Below, piece by piece: positions 16,040 to 21,469 of a stretch of DNA of 64,000 nucleotides. Location of the stretch: positions 9,548-73,547 of the forward strand of contig NZ_CH672409.1 of the NCBI RefSeq assembly GCF_000152885.1, read 5' to 3'. Made by a program: the position numbers and the translations under genes. Positions within the stretch are counted from its first letter, which is position 1, and each line of letters opens with the position of its first letter. The DNA comes from Idiomarina baltica OS145 (lineage in GTDB: Bacteria; Pseudomonadota; Gammaproteobacteria; Enterobacterales; Alteromonadaceae). Below the pieces are notes generated by a model. That model worked only from the letters and a program-made list of their open reading frames with translations. It was not told the origin of the DNA and did no database searches.

Positions 16040-16585
16040 TTAACAGCCGTCTGTTTTATTTGCAACAAAAGTGCCGCGTGAATTAATGGGTTGGGTAAAA
16101 TAAACGCGACAATTGTCATCGGCTATCTCACCATCATCATCACGGTCAAAACCAATATAGGTTTGATGACGCTCGCCGACTTCAATAATGACATCCTCTG
16201 AGAAACTCACCATTTTTGCCACTTCAAAGTTATCAGGCCCCAATTGATCCACGTCATTTTTTATTAGCTTGATGTCGCGGCTGACATTATTACGCGGATT
16301 CTCTTGGTCTGACGTGGCATCGGCTTCAATAATACCGTCACCATTAACATCTAACCACGGACTGCCATTCACGTATATAACTCGGTTAGGTAGCTGCAAC
16401 GCAGCATCAATATGCTTGGAGGCTTCCGTCAAGGTACCCGACATCGACTTAACCGCATTGGTCCGTGCTGCGGTACCAAAGTCAAAAAACTTAGGCGCCG
16501 CCGTCACCGCTAGGACACCAATGACCACAATAACAATAATCAACTCAATCAGGGTAAAACCTGCATTTAACGTCTGTTTACTCAA
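16040..16585 (-). CDS. type IV-like prepilin (MSHA/T2SS pseudopilin-like)
   Basis: Prepilin-like protein (181 aa) with a class III signal: short basic leader, then NAG|FTLIEL with Gly at -1, Phe at +1 and Glu at +5, followed by a hydrophobic helix. The start codon is TTG (16583-16585) with a strong GGAG 5-6 nt upstream. The globular part contains a DVNGDG segment and a DRDDDGEI segment resembling calcium-binding Asp-rich loops. It lies 8 nt after the adhesin gene of the chaperone-usher operon and is probably its last gene, which is unusual because the two pilus types use different secretion routes. It needs a prepilin peptidase such as PilD at 40459. Confidence 0.82.
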   Translation of the reverse strand: MSKQTLNAGFTLIELIIVIVVIGVLAVTAAPKFFDFGTAARTNAVKSMSGTLTEASKHIDAALQLPNRVIYVNGSPWLDVNGDGIIEADATSDQENPRNNVSRDIKLIKNDVDQLGPDNFEVAKMVSFSEDVIIEVGERHQTYIGFDRDDDGEIADDNCRVYFTQPINSRGTFVANKTDGC

Positions 16586-16593
16586 AAGGGCTC

Positions 16594-17463
16594 CTACCTT
16601 GCTGTTACGGTCACATAAACGGTATCCTGGTACCGACCCGCGCGTTGATACTTCACATCATCCACGACGATACCCATATCAAAACGTCGCTTGCCTGAGT
16701 AACTTTGCTGGTAGCTGCGTTGGTAGGTGGTGGTCGCGGGAAAACGATTGCCATCAAAAAGGATCTCATACGGGATACGGCTACTCGTATCTTGTTGATG
16801 TACCAGTGCACGGTCTTCCGAGTAAATTGATACATCGTATAGACTGTTACTAAATACTTTCAGTCGCCAATCAGCCCGCGCGCCATCATTGAGGCTCCCT
16901 AAGTCTACTTGGTAGTGGCCGCCATGACCGCGCACCGAATCACTGTGCGACCGAGCGACTTGAATACTGACAACGGCTGGCATGTAAAACCCAAGGTCGA
17001 CCACTTTGTCCATTAATGTACGACGACCATCCTTTGATTGAACCACCAGGGCAGCGGCATAGGCGCCAGCCGTGATCACGCGGTGCGCGTCGATACGTAA
17101 CCATAGGTTTAAATGCTGATGACCATTGTAATCAACAATCCAAGAACGACGTCCATCGACCGTACGCACGGGCAAAGGCTTGCGGTTAGTGTTCAATAAG
17201 GTGGCGTCGAGTTGTACACCTCCTTCACCGATGAGTTTAAAAGGTCCGTTATCCACAGCACTAAAAATCAAACTATCGATACAAGGACGTCCCTCTCGAA
17301 ATGCCTGCACTTTTATCGGCAATAAAATTTCATCGTCAAACCTTACCGAGTTGTATTGATTAACTTGCACATCAAAGTCACCCGTGCACTGGTGTGGGTA
17401 ACGACTATCAGCTTGTGCCACAGCTGATACCAGAAAAATAAACACGATTATGAACCTTTTCAT
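16594..17463 (-). CDS. putative chaperone-usher pilus tip subunit/adhesin
   Basis: Exported protein (289 aa) with a Sec signal peptide ending near AQA (about residue 18). The C-terminal end (AGRYQDTVYVTVTAR) matches the last beta-strands of spore-coat-U-like pilins, as in the major subunit encoded upstream in the operon. The N-terminal half (about residues 20-150) resembles nothing I recognise and may be the receptor-binding domain. Only two Cys remain in the mature protein, possibly one disulfide. Its ATG overlaps the usher stop by 4 nt. By position and size it is the tip adhesin; that is inference. Confidence 0.65.
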   Translation of the reverse strand: MKRFIIVFIFLVSAVAQADSRYPHQCTGDFDVQVNQYNSVRFDDEILLPIKVQAFREGRPCIDSLIFSAVDNGPFKLIGEGGVQLDATLLNTNRKPLPVRTVDGRRSWIVDYNGHQHLNLWLRIDAHRVITAGAYAAALVVQSKDGRRTLMDKVVDLGFYMPAVVSIQVARSHSDSVRGHGGHYQVDLGSLNDGARADWRLKVFSNSLYDVSIYSEDRALVHQQDTSSRIPYEILFDGNRFPATTTYQRSYQQSYSGKRRFDMGIVVDDVKYQRAGRYQDTVYVTVTAR

Positions 17464-19844
17464 GGTTGCACCTCGCTTACGGTAATAATCCCCGCATCAA
17501 TTAAATTTTCTTCCGCTGCTTTAAAGTTCACTTTTGCTTGATACTTACCTATCACTAACTTGTAAGTACCTGGCGCAATGCCCTCGACCGCAAAACGGCC
17601 CCTGCGATTGGTAAATACATCCAACACCAATCCATTTCCAACCAGTTCGCCACGCTCCAAGCTGAGTGGCTGACCCGACTCATCTTGGATATAACCCAAG
17701 ACTAAATAAGCGGCATCCGAACCCACAGTAATGACGCGTCCAGTCACACTACCACCACTTGAGTCATACAATCCTGGGCCCCAGTTATAACCGAGCGGTG
17801 CATTAGGTACATTAACGACAAGGCTGGTTTCACTAAACGGCGCGCCTAATGTCACTAATCCTGCTAAATGCTCTCCCGCGCGAGCCTCAATTTCACCCAA
17901 ATAATCTGGATTAATCTCGACATCACTATCGGCGAGTGTCTTATGCTTTTTAATCAGCGCGAATGGAGCATCAACAATACTCGACATGCCAAGGCTTCCA
18001 TCAGCAAAACCGAGCGTCGTACTCAGCGATGTGCGATAGATGTCAAAACGAGCGCCCGACTCGAGTTCTAGTTTTGACGCCGTCAGTTCGCCGCGTATGC
18101 GGTTTCCGGTGTAACTACCGCTGGCGCGAATATCCCGTAGTTGTGGATTATCGATACCATAGATTTCGTAGCCATAGTTGCCCACACGGTTGCGGTTAAT
18201 GCGACCAAAGCTCGCTTGCGCCTGTTCTCTACGGTGATCGTATTCAACCCTTGTACGCAACTGACTACGTGAATCATAACTGTTCCACGAAACACTCAAA
18301 AACACGCCATCTTGCTGCTGCGTTAATGGATCAACAAAGTTACTGCGATAATATTCGGCACTCAGTAACCAGCCGCGACGACGCCAACTGAACCGAAGCG
18401 AATCCGTATTAATTGTTGTGCCATCGACCGCTTCGTAGCGCGACACACTGGCGGTTAAATCAAACTCATCATTGAAGAAATAAGTATAGTCTGCCGTCAC
18501 TCGACGGTCATCAAATAACGTCAGTGGCTGCGTGGCGACTGTGGGGGCAAACTCAACTCTTTTCTCAAAACTGAAGCGCAGGTTAGGCGAGCTATTATAA
18601 CCACTTCCCCAGACTGAGAACCCGACATCCACAGACGCTGCATAGCCATTAAATTCATCCAACTTAGATTGTGAGCCACGCAATGTAATGACACCGATAT
18701 CAAAACCATAGGAGACCGTCGTGCCCACAATATGGCCCAAACTACTAAGTTCGAGGTTCACACCGGCAGTGAAACTATCCGAGAAACCGTAATCGTAATA
18801 GCCAGAGAATGTCAGTTCATCCCCATAGTTATATGAAAACTCTTCAAACTCCGATGCATAGCCGAGCTGAAAAGAGAAATCTGAAAGACCTTTGCGTAAC
18901 AATGCGCCGCTGTAAAAGTTGTCAAAGCGAAATGTCTGTGTGGAGCCGTCCTCAAAAGTCGCAACGACGAGCACTTCATTGGCGCCTGCTGTGAAGGGCA
19001 GATCATTTAACTCATAACGACCTGGGTTAAATTGTTGTCGTAAGACGGTAAAGCCGTTGACTTGGATCTCAACATCGGCGCTCGACGGTAGATAGAACTG
19101 CTGACTGTTGCCTGGACTGATTTCACGACGCGGTTGAAGCTCACGGTAGGCGCGCGAAACACCAATACCCCCCATATTGAGACCGCTGACATGCCCACTC
19201 GTAAAGGTAGTCAAATCGCCGAGTTCATAGCGCAATGGCAATTGAGGGTTATCGTGAAATAGTGTGACTTCTCCACGATAGAACTCGTTATTGCCCTCAT
19301 CGTTTCGATCGGCAAAGGCAGACCAACGCGCGTTCACACCATCGTATCCACCGACGTTTGCCGAACCGAGCCATTCTAGGGCGTAGCGCGTGTCTGAGTC
19401 GACAGTCTCCGTCAGTAGGTTAAACCGATTTAAGCTCGCAATAGTCGCAGTGCTATCGGGAATTACGACATAATCCGCAGTACCGTAATTTAACTCAGTT
19501 GGACGCAGAGCACTACCAGCTAACTTTGCCGTTAGACTCATGTTTTGCGGTGAAAAGTCGATAAAAATCCCACGATCTTGCAGTGCAGTGATGGGGATTA
19601 AACTGTCAGGATAAGCCTCTACCCAATGCATGGTGTCGTCATTCAGCATACGGCCCATTGAGCTCAGTAATGACTGTTTAACAACAGCAACGACTTGGCC
19701 CGATTGAATGGTCGCCGCGATGTCTTGAATCGCGCGTTCATTATAATTGACCGGCAAATCAATTGCATATTGTTGAGATTGTAACGGTAATGCATAAGCC
19801 GAGGCAGACGCACTAACGATCATCAGCCAGTTTAATGCGCGCAT
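17460..19844 (-). CDS. chaperone-usher pilus outer-membrane usher
   Basis: Usher of a chaperone-usher pilus (794 aa from the ATG at 19844; the frame is open to 19865). It is an outer-membrane beta-barrel that catalyses subunit polymerisation and secretion. The N-terminus is a Sec signal (MRALNWLMIVSASASAYA). The N-terminal domain, a long barrel region with alternating aromatic strands, a plug-like region and C-terminal carboxypeptidase-regulatory-like beta domains (GYIQDESGQPL, GRFAVEGIAPGTYKLVIGKY) are visible. It overlaps the chaperone gene by about 30 nt. It resembles the archaic/alternative usher class found with spore-coat-U pilins. Confidence 0.9.
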   Translation of the reverse strand: MRALNWLMIVSASASAYALPLQSQQYAIDLPVNYNERAIQDIAATIQSGQVVAVVKQSLLSSMGRMLNDDTMHWVEAYPDSLIPITALQDRGIFIDFSPQNMSLTAKLAGSALRPTELNYGTADYVVIPDSTATIASLNRFNLLTETVDSDTRYALEWLGSANVGGYDGVNARWSAFADRNDEGNNEFYRGEVTLFHDNPQLPLRYELGDLTTFTSGHVSGLNMGGIGVSRAYRELQPRREISPGNSQQFYLPSSADVEIQVNGFTVLRQQFNPGRYELNDLPFTAGANEVLVVATFEDGSTQTFRFDNFYSGALLRKGLSDFSFQLGYASEFEEFSYNYGDELTFSGYYDYGFSDSFTAGVNLELSSLGHIVGTTVSYGFDIGVITLRGSQSKLDEFNGYAASVDVGFSVWGSGYNSSPNLRFSFEKRVEFAPTVATQPLTLFDDRRVTADYTYFFNDEFDLTASVSRYEAVDGTTINTDSLRFSWRRRGWLLSAEYYRSNFVDPLTQQQDGVFLSVSWNSYDSRSQLRTRVEYDHRREQAQASFGRINRNRVGNYGYEIYGIDNPQLRDIRASGSYTGNRIRGELTASKLELESGARFDIYRTSLSTTLGFADGSLGMSSIVDAPFALIKKHKTLADSDVEINPDYLGEIEARAGEHLAGLVTLGAPFSETSLVVNVPNAPLGYNWGPGLYDSSGGSVTGRVITVGSDAAYLVLGYIQDESGQPLSLERGELVGNGLVLDVFTNRRGRFAVEGIAPGTYKLVIGKYQAKVNFKAAEENLIDAGIITVSEVQP

Positions 19845-20529
19845 CTTCGACTCGTCCTTGCTCATTGAGAGACGCCAGCGCTAAACGAATGGTATGCGAT
19901 GGCATTAAATAGGAAACGGGTAGTAACTCGCGATACATTGTCCATTCAACAGCATGCTCATTACCTGAATCTATAATCAATTGACTGCCATTAAGATTAA
20001 CCACTTGGTTACCATTGTTAGTAAGCACTAACTGACAACCTATCTCGGCATCATTACACTCGAGTTTCTGTTGTAGGTCCTCAACCCCCTGTTGAGGATT
20101 GACGAATAGCAGTGTAGCGAAATTAAACACCATGTTAATTTCAGGTTGGCCATCGGGTTCACTTTTTAGCGGCAATTGCTTAAACACAATTCGGTAAGAC
20201 TGCGTCTCAGCTAAACGTGGGTCACCAATAAATTGCGCTCGAAAAACTTGATAGGACTGGGCGCCCACTTCAATCTGCGGTGGCAGTACGATAATGTCAT
20301 CGGTTTCGACTAACTGTTCAACTTGGTTGTCATCGAAGCTTCGTTTGTACACTTCAACTTCAAGCGGCAAGGTGGTGTCGCTCGGATTTGCGACGCGATA
20401 AGTCACACGGTTATGACCGCTGGTCGCCTGGATTTCAGCGATCATCGGCTCCACTTCGTAGGCATCTACCAGCACAGCAACCAGTACTAGCAGCCACAAC
20501 ATTGCTTTTTTTAACATGGCTGAACTCAT
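19813..20529 (-). CDS. chaperone-usher pilus periplasmic chaperone
   Basis: PapD-like periplasmic chaperone (238 aa) that caps pilus subunits by donor-strand complementation. A signal peptide occupies about residues 1-23. Two immunoglobulin-like domains follow. Domain 1 has YRVANPSDTTLPLEVEVYKR and QSYRIVFKQLP, typical of the family, and the NMVFNFATLLFVNP edge strand would complement subunits. It is the second gene of the pilus operon, after the major pilin and a stem-loop that may set relative expression. Confidence 0.88.
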   Translation of the reverse strand: MSSAMLKKAMLWLLVLVAVLVDAYEVEPMIAEIQATSGHNRVTYRVANPSDTTLPLEVEVYKRSFDDNQVEQLVETDDIIVLPPQIEVGAQSYQVFRAQFIGDPRLAETQSYRIVFKQLPLKSEPDGQPEINMVFNFATLLFVNPQQGVEDLQQKLECNDAEIGCQLVLTNNGNQVVNLNGSQLIIDSGNEHAVEWTMYRELLPVSYLMPSHTIRLALASLNEQGRVEDARIKLADDR

Positions 20530-20590: not shown

Positions 20591-21094
20591 TTAGTTCGGA
20601 GTCACAGTGACAGTGATCGTGTCACTATAGTCACCGGCGCGCTCATAACCTGTAGGTGCAGGAGAGACCTTCAAGGTACGGCGATGGAGGTCACCATTGG
20701 TGTTGTTACCGACCATGTTTCCGTTGCCAGTCATTGAATAAGGTGAGGTGAGAGAAACGCCCACTGCTGAACCATGATCCATAGTGTATGGAATGAAACC
20801 GGCTTGTGGATCGTTGTTTAGTGCTAACACACCACCGTTTTGTGAGCTGTAGGTGATGGTAGGCATTGCAGAAGTATTACACCAGAAACCAACACCAAAG
20901 CCAGCTGTAGCAACGCCGTCGAGAGCGATAGTTTTTGATGGACCACTGCTGTTATCCACTTTACAGACTTTCTCAACGGTACCGTTGACAGTAAATGACG
21001 TGGTATCGGTGTTGCTTAAATCCATTTGTTCAGCGACTGCTGCGGTGGTGGTGAATAGACTAGCAACTAAGAGGGTTTTTACTGAAGTTTTCAT
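20591..21094 (-). CDS. major pilin, spore coat U-like domain
   Basis: Secreted pilin (167 aa) with a Sec signal peptide ending AVA|EQ (about residue 21). The mature part is a single spore-coat-protein-U-type domain: FTVNGTVEKVCKV, a second Cys in GFWCNT (probable disulfide) and the terminal AGDYSDTITVTVTPN strands. This pilin type pairs with archaic/alternative chaperone-usher systems such as Csu. It is the first gene of the operon pilin-chaperone-usher-tip-prepilin. It has AGGA about 10 nt before the ATG and directly follows two tandem riboswitch-like elements. Confidence 0.85.
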   Translation of the reverse strand: MKTSVKTLLVASLFTTTAAVAEQMDLSNTDTTSFTVNGTVEKVCKVDNSSGPSKTIALDGVATAGFGVGFWCNTSAMPTITYSSQNGGVLALNNDPQAGFIPYTMDHGSAVGVSLTSPYSMTGNGNMVGNNTNGDLHRRTLKVSPAPTGYERAGDYSDTITVTVTPN

Positions 21095-21115
21095 TTTGCG
21101 AAATTCCTAAGTTCC

Positions 21116-21198
21116 GCAACCCGGCTATCTGAGATACATCTCAACACACTCTGAGACCCGTGGCTTTCCGTCCTCATCTCGCGATGAGTTTGGCAGTT
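21116..21198 (-). ncRNA. c-di-GMP-I (GEMM-I) riboswitch, gene-proximal copy
   Basis: Read on the minus strand, the transcript has GCCAAAC, then a perfect 6-bp stem CTCATC/GATGAG capped by a GCGA (GNRA) tetraloop, then GGACGGAAAGCC, ACGGGTCTCAGA, a variable hairpin and AGATAGCCGGGTTGC. These are the ordered conserved blocks of GEMM-I: CAAAC, GNRA-capped P2, GACGxAAAGCC, tetraloop receptor and GCCGGGTTGC. Only about 21 nt separate the aptamer from the pilin ATG, including the SD TTAGGA, so translational control is most plausible. Recognition is from memory of the motif; a covariance-model search would settle it. Confidence 0.85.
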
Positions 21199-21220
21199 AA
21201 ACAAAATTAATTATTTAGCT

Positions 21221-21299
21221 GCAACCCGGCTATCTTCGTTTTTATTTTTAGAAGACCCGAAGCTTTCCGTCCCCGCCTCACGGAGGGTTTGGCCGACTC
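21221..21299 (-). ncRNA. c-di-GMP-I (GEMM-I) riboswitch, upstream copy
   Basis: Second copy of the same motif, 5' of the first in the transcript and separated from it by about 25 nt of AT-rich linker. It has GGCCAAACC, a stem with GTGA (GNRA) tetraloop and one internal mismatch, GGGACGGAAAGC, TTCGGGTCTTC, a variable loop and GAAGATAGCCGGGTTGC. The conserved blocks match the proximal copy while loops and stems differ in sequence, as expected for two functional aptamers rather than a recent duplication. Confidence 0.85.
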
Positions 21300-21320
21300 A
21301 AGTGGCAACCCACTTGAGTC
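21295..21320. repeat. perfect 11-bp inverted repeat at 5' edge of riboswitch tandem
   Basis: GACTCAAGTGG (21295-21305), caac loop, CCACTTGAGTC (21310-21320). On the minus-strand transcript the hairpin sits just before the upstream aptamer and has a T-run before it rather than after, so it is not a terminator for either strand. It may be a 5' mRNA hairpin or part of the switching structure. Confidence 0.7.
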
Positions 21321-21359
21321 GAAAAAAATAATAGATGAGCGTTTTAGTATTTGCCATAA

Positions 21360-21384
21360 CGATTGCAACGTTTTATTGCAATCG
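21360..21384. promoter_or_regulatory. inverted repeat, candidate operator upstream of pilus operon
   Basis: Perfect 9-bp arms CGATTGCAA (21360-21368) and TTGCAATCG (21376-21384) separated by 7 bp, in the AT-rich DNA (about 21330-21460) that must hold the pilus operon promoter. TTGCAA within the arms could also serve as a -35 hexamer. It looks like a dimeric regulator site; the regulator is unknown. Confidence 0.45.
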
Positions 21385-21469
21385 ATTGTTAAACCATTGT
21401 TTGTTAATAGTTTATTTTGTAAGCATTTTGTAAATACCGCACATCTGCGAACAACGGTTTGCTGATTAA

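Follow-up and report, generated by a model that had tools for sequence, protein, structure and literature searches.

Tandem c-di-GMP-I aptamers with a putative shared translational platform upstream of a chaperone-usher pilus operon in Idiomarina baltica

The window analysed here, a stretch of 64,000 nucleotides from the genome of Idiomarina baltica OS145, carries on its minus strand an operon for a chaperone-usher pilus. Two c-di-GMP-I (GEMM-I) aptamers are arranged head to tail directly 5' of the pilin, chaperone and usher genes, and the leader in which they lie is predicted to fold into three further hairpins, termed HP0, HP1 and HP2 (Table 1). A preceding sequence-only reading of the same DNA had described the two aptamers; the hairpins, among them the putative expression platform, were absent from that description.

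Table 1. Coordinates of the leader elements and operon genes within the window
Feature	Position	Strand	Remarks
Hairpin HP0	21322-21293	-	Directly 5' of aptamer 1, reaching its G20
Aptamer 1, c-di-GMP-I (GEMM-I)	21303-21217	-	RF01051 54.3 bits, gathering 35, E 7.8e-08
Aptamer 1 key bases	G20 = 21293, C92 = 21221	-	Converted from folding-analysis indices
Linker hairpin HP1	21222-21193	-	Base pair between C92 (aptamer 1) and G20 (aptamer 2)
Aptamer 2, c-di-GMP-I	21203-21111	-	RF03167 61.0 bits, gathering 59, E 5.9e-12; RF01051 64.1 bits
Aptamer 2 key bases	G20 = 21194, C92 = 21116	-	
Putative expression platform hairpin HP2	21119-21096	-	Shine-Dalgarno AGGA (21108-21105) in loop
Major pilin candidate	20591..21094	-	167 aa, first operon gene; full-length SCPU match, 19.8 bits, under cut-off 22.4
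Periplasmic chaperone (PapD_N)	19813..20529	-	PF00345 31 bits, cut-off 23
Outer-membrane usher	17460..19865	-	PF00577 29.9 bits, cut-off 27.1
Tip subunit/adhesin candidate	16594..17463	-	Sub-threshold SCPU similarity at the C-terminus (20.5 bits, cut-off 22.4)
Prepilin-like gene, operon end	16040..16585	-	Optional member; PF07963, TIGR02532

The pilus had been called archaic-type, which is supported only in part: the domain matches of the chaperone and the usher exceed their cut-offs, whereas the SCPU match of the pilin, full-length as it is, stays under its own. A sequence search found one weak solved relative for the usher, the F1 capsule-anchoring protein (3fcg_A, E 5e-4), and none for the chaperone or the pilin; the AlphaFold model of the pilin has a mean pLDDT of 38.2 and is too poor for a structure search. 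The tip candidate and the pilin have a 16-residue C-terminal motif in common. Relatives of the usher with 77-96% identity occur in the same genus in Idiomarina sp. MD25a (G011), the Idiomarinaceae MAG CPC14 359 (G012), I. fontislapidosi (G004) and I. aquatica (G003), the window's own genome being G000. The proposed gene order pilin-chaperone-usher-tip-prepilin is found in the window, but the prepilin is not a constant member: an ORF of 181 aa stands at its position in three of these four relatives, and I. aquatica has none adjoining, with no ORF of at least 100 aa at that position. The gene resembles a type IV prepilin and lies 8 nt 3' of the tip gene, so that two pilus types are oddly combined in one operon; within the genus its presence is optional.

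The intergenic stretch in front of the pilin gene extends from 21095 to 21469 and thus has the 375 bp that had been given for the leader. When the window was scanned with all Rfam families (cmscan), two matches over gathering thresholds were obtained, both on the minus strand in this leader; a third, which overlaps and belongs to the same clan, was dropped by the tool. The tandem GEMM-I copies on the sense strand are thereby confirmed by Rfam covariance models, and running RF01051 on the minus strand, the check suggested along with the claim, gives a significant match for each copy, both exceeding the gathering threshold of 35 bits. The sequence blocks that had been named are present as well, i.e. 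CAAAC, the GNRA loops GTGA (copy 1) and GCGA (copy 2), and GACGGAAAGC and GCCGGGTTGC in both copies. However, GACGGAAAGC is not the family consensus, which reads GACGCAAAGC in the cmscan alignment, and represents one half of a compensated base-pair swap. The location of the tandem had likewise been recognized, but its extent had been set at 21299-21116, whereas the aptamers span 21303-21111. Only 12-13 nt separate the two Rfam matches. For aptamer 2, the RF03167 alignment shows a weak P1 helix. Among the 150 of 201 first-look candidates scored across the 2.77-Mb genome, only these two copies match RF01051 with E <= 0.001. The leader sequence has no match among the plasmids searched, and the promoter search returned one weak sigma-70-like site, with 0.7 expected by shuffling.

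Aptamer leaders are found at all five usher operons detected in the genus. A strong usher match together with a pilin is present in 5 of 19 genus genomes, with two weaker usher matches left out of the count, one in G017 and the other at a further site in I. fontislapidosi. Four of the five leaders are double (I. baltica, I. aquatica, I. fontislapidosi and MD25a) and that of CPC14 359 is single. The association of GEMM-I aptamers with a chaperone-usher operon is thus borne out, and it is conserved in relatives. GEMM-I matches occur in 6 of the 19 genomes. The sixth, in G016 (L080:2749-2843, minus strand), is a single copy that precedes a 621-aa ORF and overlaps its TTG start; by eye this ORF resembles a two-partner-secretion (TpsB/ShlB-like) outer-membrane transporter. 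The single aptamer of CPC14 359 (L057) is a hybrid with the front of aptamer 1 and the end of aptamer 2, joined at a shared 15-nt stretch, AGATAGCCGGGTTGC. Because I. aquatica, whose usher is the least similar (77%), is double, the single form is most simply explained by a deletion between the 15-nt repeats, with relatedness judged by usher identity and CPC14 359 being a MAG.

Close doublets were also sought by pattern. The search GACGNAAAGCN{80,110}GACGNAAAGC, whose strict, exact cores miss diverged doublets, matched 8 of 395 family genomes: the four Idiomarina leaders and G268, G298, G198 and G153, where the matches are not GEMM-like by eye. A similar pattern (gap 76-106) matched 5 of 398 phylum genomes, namely I. 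baltica and four that are again not GEMM-like by eye. In the family scan, which lists only the better matches, an RF01051 match is present in 120 of 196 genomes. Since the pattern needs exact cores and the scan gives the better matches only, these counts do not settle how rare close doublets are.

Both copies keep the ligand-contacting bases G20, A47 and C92 (cmscan alignments; the numbering was placed here by us), for which the contacting roles are described in PMC3764141, and these ligand-type bases are kept by both copies in all four tandem genomes. As G20, A47 and C92 are retained in both, c-di-GMP is the expected ligand of each aptamer. The suggestion of a two-input switch is not supported, given the c-di-GMP-type bases in both copies. 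A cGAMP (GEMM-Ib) reading was rejected as well, both copies having G20.

The base-pair swap consists of a C21-G46 pair in place of G21-C46 in both copies, and the pairs 21-46 and 22-45 are standard pairs in each (cmscan alignments). A pattern allowing either base at positions 21 and 46 was run across 196 family genomes and its matches were counted by eye. It returned 37 matches, of which 33 have GEMM length (32-33 nt): 25 carry G21/C46, eight carry C21/G46 and none is mixed. The remaining four differ in length, are mixed without exception and appear to be chance matches. Since only compensated forms occur among the 33 GEMM-length matches, the swap is a true covariation. The eight swapped matches comprise two each in I. 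baltica and I. fontislapidosi and one each in G104, G116, G154 and G191, from two other genera, where each single aptamer exceeds an Rfam cut-off. Single C21-G46 GEMM-I aptamers of two other genera (L076:558-641, L077:538-619, L078:514-593 and L079:598-674) each lie close 5' of an ORF with a signal-peptide-like start; at L078 the Shine-Dalgarno, by eye, also sits in a hairpin loop directly 3' of the aptamer. The swap might tune affinity, because G21 and C46 are named as key contacts in a simulation study (PMC9049102).

The 5' strand of HP2 overlaps the 3' end of aptamer 2, sharing UUGC with C92 included, and forms 7-8 bp. It folds with -6.7 kcal/mol (z -2.95; 3 of 200 shuffles are as stable), and it has no fold (0 kcal/mol) once the aptamer-shared bases and their partners are removed. 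The Shine-Dalgarno AGGA lies 10 nt from the AUG. In I. fontislapidosi, MD25a and CPC14 359 the hairpin reads UUGCGAAA-AUUAGGA-UUUCGCAA, with an A-U pair where I. baltica has G-U; in I. aquatica the outermost pair is missing. This arrangement suggests how c-di-GMP could act. Without the ligand, the UUGC at the 3' end of aptamer 2 would pair downstream to form HP2, which would keep the Shine-Dalgarno in its loop and make the spacer before the AUG double-stranded, so that ribosomes would load poorly. Binding of c-di-GMP by aptamer 2 would take these bases into the aptamer, HP2 would dissolve and translation would start.

The folding model is consistent with this direction. When the bound fold is forced on every aptamer, opening of the stretch from Shine-Dalgarno to AUG becomes cheaper in all five species, with costs falling from 5.68 to 4.77 kcal/mol in I. 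baltica, 7.88 to 4.10 in I. fontislapidosi, 6.85 to 4.64 in MD25a, 7.05 to 4.37 in CPC14 359 and 6.67 to 4.20 in I. aquatica. The drop in I. baltica is small (0.9 kcal/mol) and is reached by 12 of 100 shuffled spacers, compared with 2 of 100 in I. aquatica. Between 20900 and 21500 the sense strand has no terminator-like site, and control is therefore most likely translational. Transcription attenuation was rejected, as the sole terminator-like site in this interval is on the other strand.

HP1 connects the two aptamers. It folds with -8.6 kcal/mol (z -4.0; 1 of 200 shuffles is as stable) and is part of the free-state best fold in all four tandem species. The linker from C92 of aptamer 1 to G20 of aptamer 2 comprises 26 nt, 25 of them the same in the four species; third codon positions of the pilin gene agree with those of I. 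baltica at only 59-71%, and similarity in the upstream stretch is 43-60%. The four tandem species are close relatives. HP1 is nearly invariant, which leaves it without covariation support, and a conserved site for a protein would give the same picture. HP0 is very stable (-22.3 kcal/mol, z -7.2; none of 200 shuffles reaches this). A hairpin occupies its site in the free-state best fold of four of the five species, and in I. fontislapidosi only with both aptamers forced. Sequence similarity at HP0 is low, at 31-52% for the three tandem relatives in the comparison, and a change from U-A to C-G between I. fontislapidosi and I. aquatica can be read from the sequences.

The pairing in HP1 points to a possible role for aptamer 1, which would act through this helix, having no platform of its own. 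Either binding event would break the C92-G20 pair, and the cost of the other binding would fall; such coupling would give positive cooperativity and a steeper response. In the folding model, which forces base pairs and includes neither ligand nor tertiary energy, so that the coupling is a prediction only, the coupling term amounts to -3.95, -4.64, -4.82 and -3.03 kcal/mol in the four tandem species. Linker shuffling in I. baltica and I. aquatica, the two species covered, gave a term this large in 0 of 100 and 4 of 100 cases, respectively. With aptamer 1 forced alone, the cost of opening the Shine-Dalgarno to AUG stretch changes by 0 to +0.06 kcal/mol in all four tandem species; since this leaves the cost unchanged, aptamer 1 could act only through the coupling. 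Forcing both aptamers gives a slightly higher opening cost than forcing aptamer 2 alone in I. baltica (4.77 versus 4.31 kcal/mol) and in MD25a (4.64 versus 4.42).

If the aptamers belonged to the GGC variant (RF03167), their ligand would perhaps not be c-di-GMP. Of the 14 GEMM copies scanned, six are indeed assigned to this family in preference by cmscan: aptamer 2 of I. baltica, both copies of I. aquatica (64.3 and 63.8 bits), aptamer 2 of MD25a and of I. fontislapidosi (60.6 and 60.5) and the single copy of G116 (59.2). The label is not clean, however. RF01051 is called for aptamer 1 of I. baltica, I. fontislapidosi and MD25a and for the single copies of CPC14 359, G104, G154 and G191, and aptamer 2 of I. 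baltica itself scores higher with RF01051 than with RF03167. Moreover, the RF03167 consensus GACGCGAA compares with GACGGAAA in both copies here, where position 47, presumably the base to which the name GGC refers, is A and not G. We rejected membership on this ground and consider the variant very improbable. An OFF switch, in which bound aptamer 2 would draw its 3' flank into a P1 helix that masks the Shine-Dalgarno, has its precedent in Vc2, described as a translational OFF switch in which P1 stability is decisive (PMC9262584), and it gains from the Shine-Dalgarno beginning only 8 nt past C92. Yet HP2 already holds the Shine-Dalgarno in the free state, the bound folds of I. baltica have no P1 for either aptamer, and forced binding cuts the opening cost in all five species. 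Pilus genes are moreover expected to rise with c-di-GMP, which also counts against this direction. Overall, we judge an OFF switch unlikely. The missing P1 weighs against an ON switch too, because loss of P1 abolishes binding in Vc2, although Cd1 binds without it (PMC9262584).

The alternatives that remain concern the presence of two aptamers. The leader might hold two separate c-di-GMP-I riboswitches, one after the other and each working a switch of its own; such a series would be pseudo-cooperative, as in Bc3-5 of B. thuringiensis (PMC4759541), and by our reading of Table 1 in PMC9481103 tandem c-di-GMP-I arrays are classed in this way. In the present leader only the short gap separates the aptamers, there is no terminator-like site on the sense strand and no ORF of at least 80 aa starts between them on that strand, which leaves aptamer 1 with nothing of its own to switch; we therefore hold this arrangement to be quite unlikely. 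Alternatively, aptamer 2 might work alone, with aptamer 1 a decaying or redundant duplicate, a situation compatible with an ON switch and not with coupling. The single hybrid aptamer of CPC14 359 would fit, as would the lower RF01051 score of aptamer 1 (54.3 versus 64.1 bits), its P2 mismatch in I. baltica, the lack of any easier ribosome-site opening when it is forced alone, and HP0 occupying the stretch before its G20. The conservation speaks against decay, however: in the three relatives, identity to I. baltica is 92-95% for aptamer 1 and 96% for the linker, far above the third positions of the pilin gene, the ligand-type bases persist in both copies of every tandem genome, and the front part retained by CPC14 359 is that of aptamer 1. 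A redundant duplicate thus appears rather doubtful to us.

We favour a single-platform ON switch, by which c-di-GMP would activate the pilus operon, and regard it as reasonably probable. Its cooperative form, i.e. adjacent aptamers sharing one translational platform through a domain-swapped linker helix, with one binding event freeing the other pocket, is put forward more tentatively; the steep switch that had been proposed is plausible as far as the folding model goes. Ligand binding, the ON direction and cooperativity are all things we infer from folding and comparison, and the leader is very probably c-di-GMP-responsive. The genome of I. baltica has 40 GGDEF-domain matches, and c-di-GMP is thus very probably made by the cell. 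This large c-di-GMP network is matched by a single detected GEMM-I locus as riboswitch outlet, serving the pilus. The paired sensors appear to share one on-switch, probably for a sharp onset of pilus production once the cell settles. If this is true, the doublet, with its one platform and conserved linker helix, would illustrate how RNA can build a cooperative c-di-GMP sensor from nothing but secondary structure, and CPC14 359 offers a natural single-aptamer sister for direct comparison with the double leaders.

The leader is real and conserved, ordinary in its class and unusual in its layout, with a gap of 12-13 nt, no terminator seen and one platform. A 2022 survey (PMC9481103) counts 347 doublets and 12 triplets of c-di-GMP-I riboswitches, which makes them its most numerous tandem class, and several GEMM-I tandems are described in Geobacter sulfurreducens (PMC6456294). 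In a survey of 2025 (PMC12452182), aptamers less than 20 nt apart are termed adjacent and this layout is found to be enriched in Pseudomonadota; for c-di-GMP the survey reports an enrichment of tandem riboswitches that have their own platforms. By the spacing and the absence of a terminator-like site between the aptamers on the sense strand, the I. baltica leader is of the adjacent type as defined in that survey; behind aptamer 1 neither a terminator-like site nor the start of an ORF of at least 80 aa was found that could mark a separate platform. The literature searched yielded no described adjacent-type c-di-GMP-I case, although the supplementary tables of PMC12452182 may list such, and no title that places a c-di-GMP riboswitch on a chaperone-usher operon. 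For Idiomarina, the text seen of PMC6456294 gives only an enzyme structure.

Set against the known families, both copies match the RF01051 model with G20, A47, C92 and a GNRA loop; they differ from it in C21-G46, also present in single aptamers of two other genera, and in having no strong P1 predicted, the flanks being taken by hairpins common to the neighbours. To c-di-GMP-I-GGC (RF03167) they are linked by an aptamer 2 score just over gathering and set apart by the lack of G47. With the tandem c-di-GMP-I arrays of PMC9481103 and Bc3-5 of B. thuringiensis (PMC4759541) the leader shares two same-class aptamers before one operon. Those arrays are placed under multiple expression platforms in Table 1 of PMC9481103, as we read it, whereas one platform, most likely translational, is predicted here. 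The closest parallel in layout is the glycine riboswitch (PMC9481103), which resembles the leader in its two adjacent aptamers, its one platform and the cooperative use predicted here, and differs in ligand and fold; in I. baltica the coupling is predicted to run via the shared linker helix.
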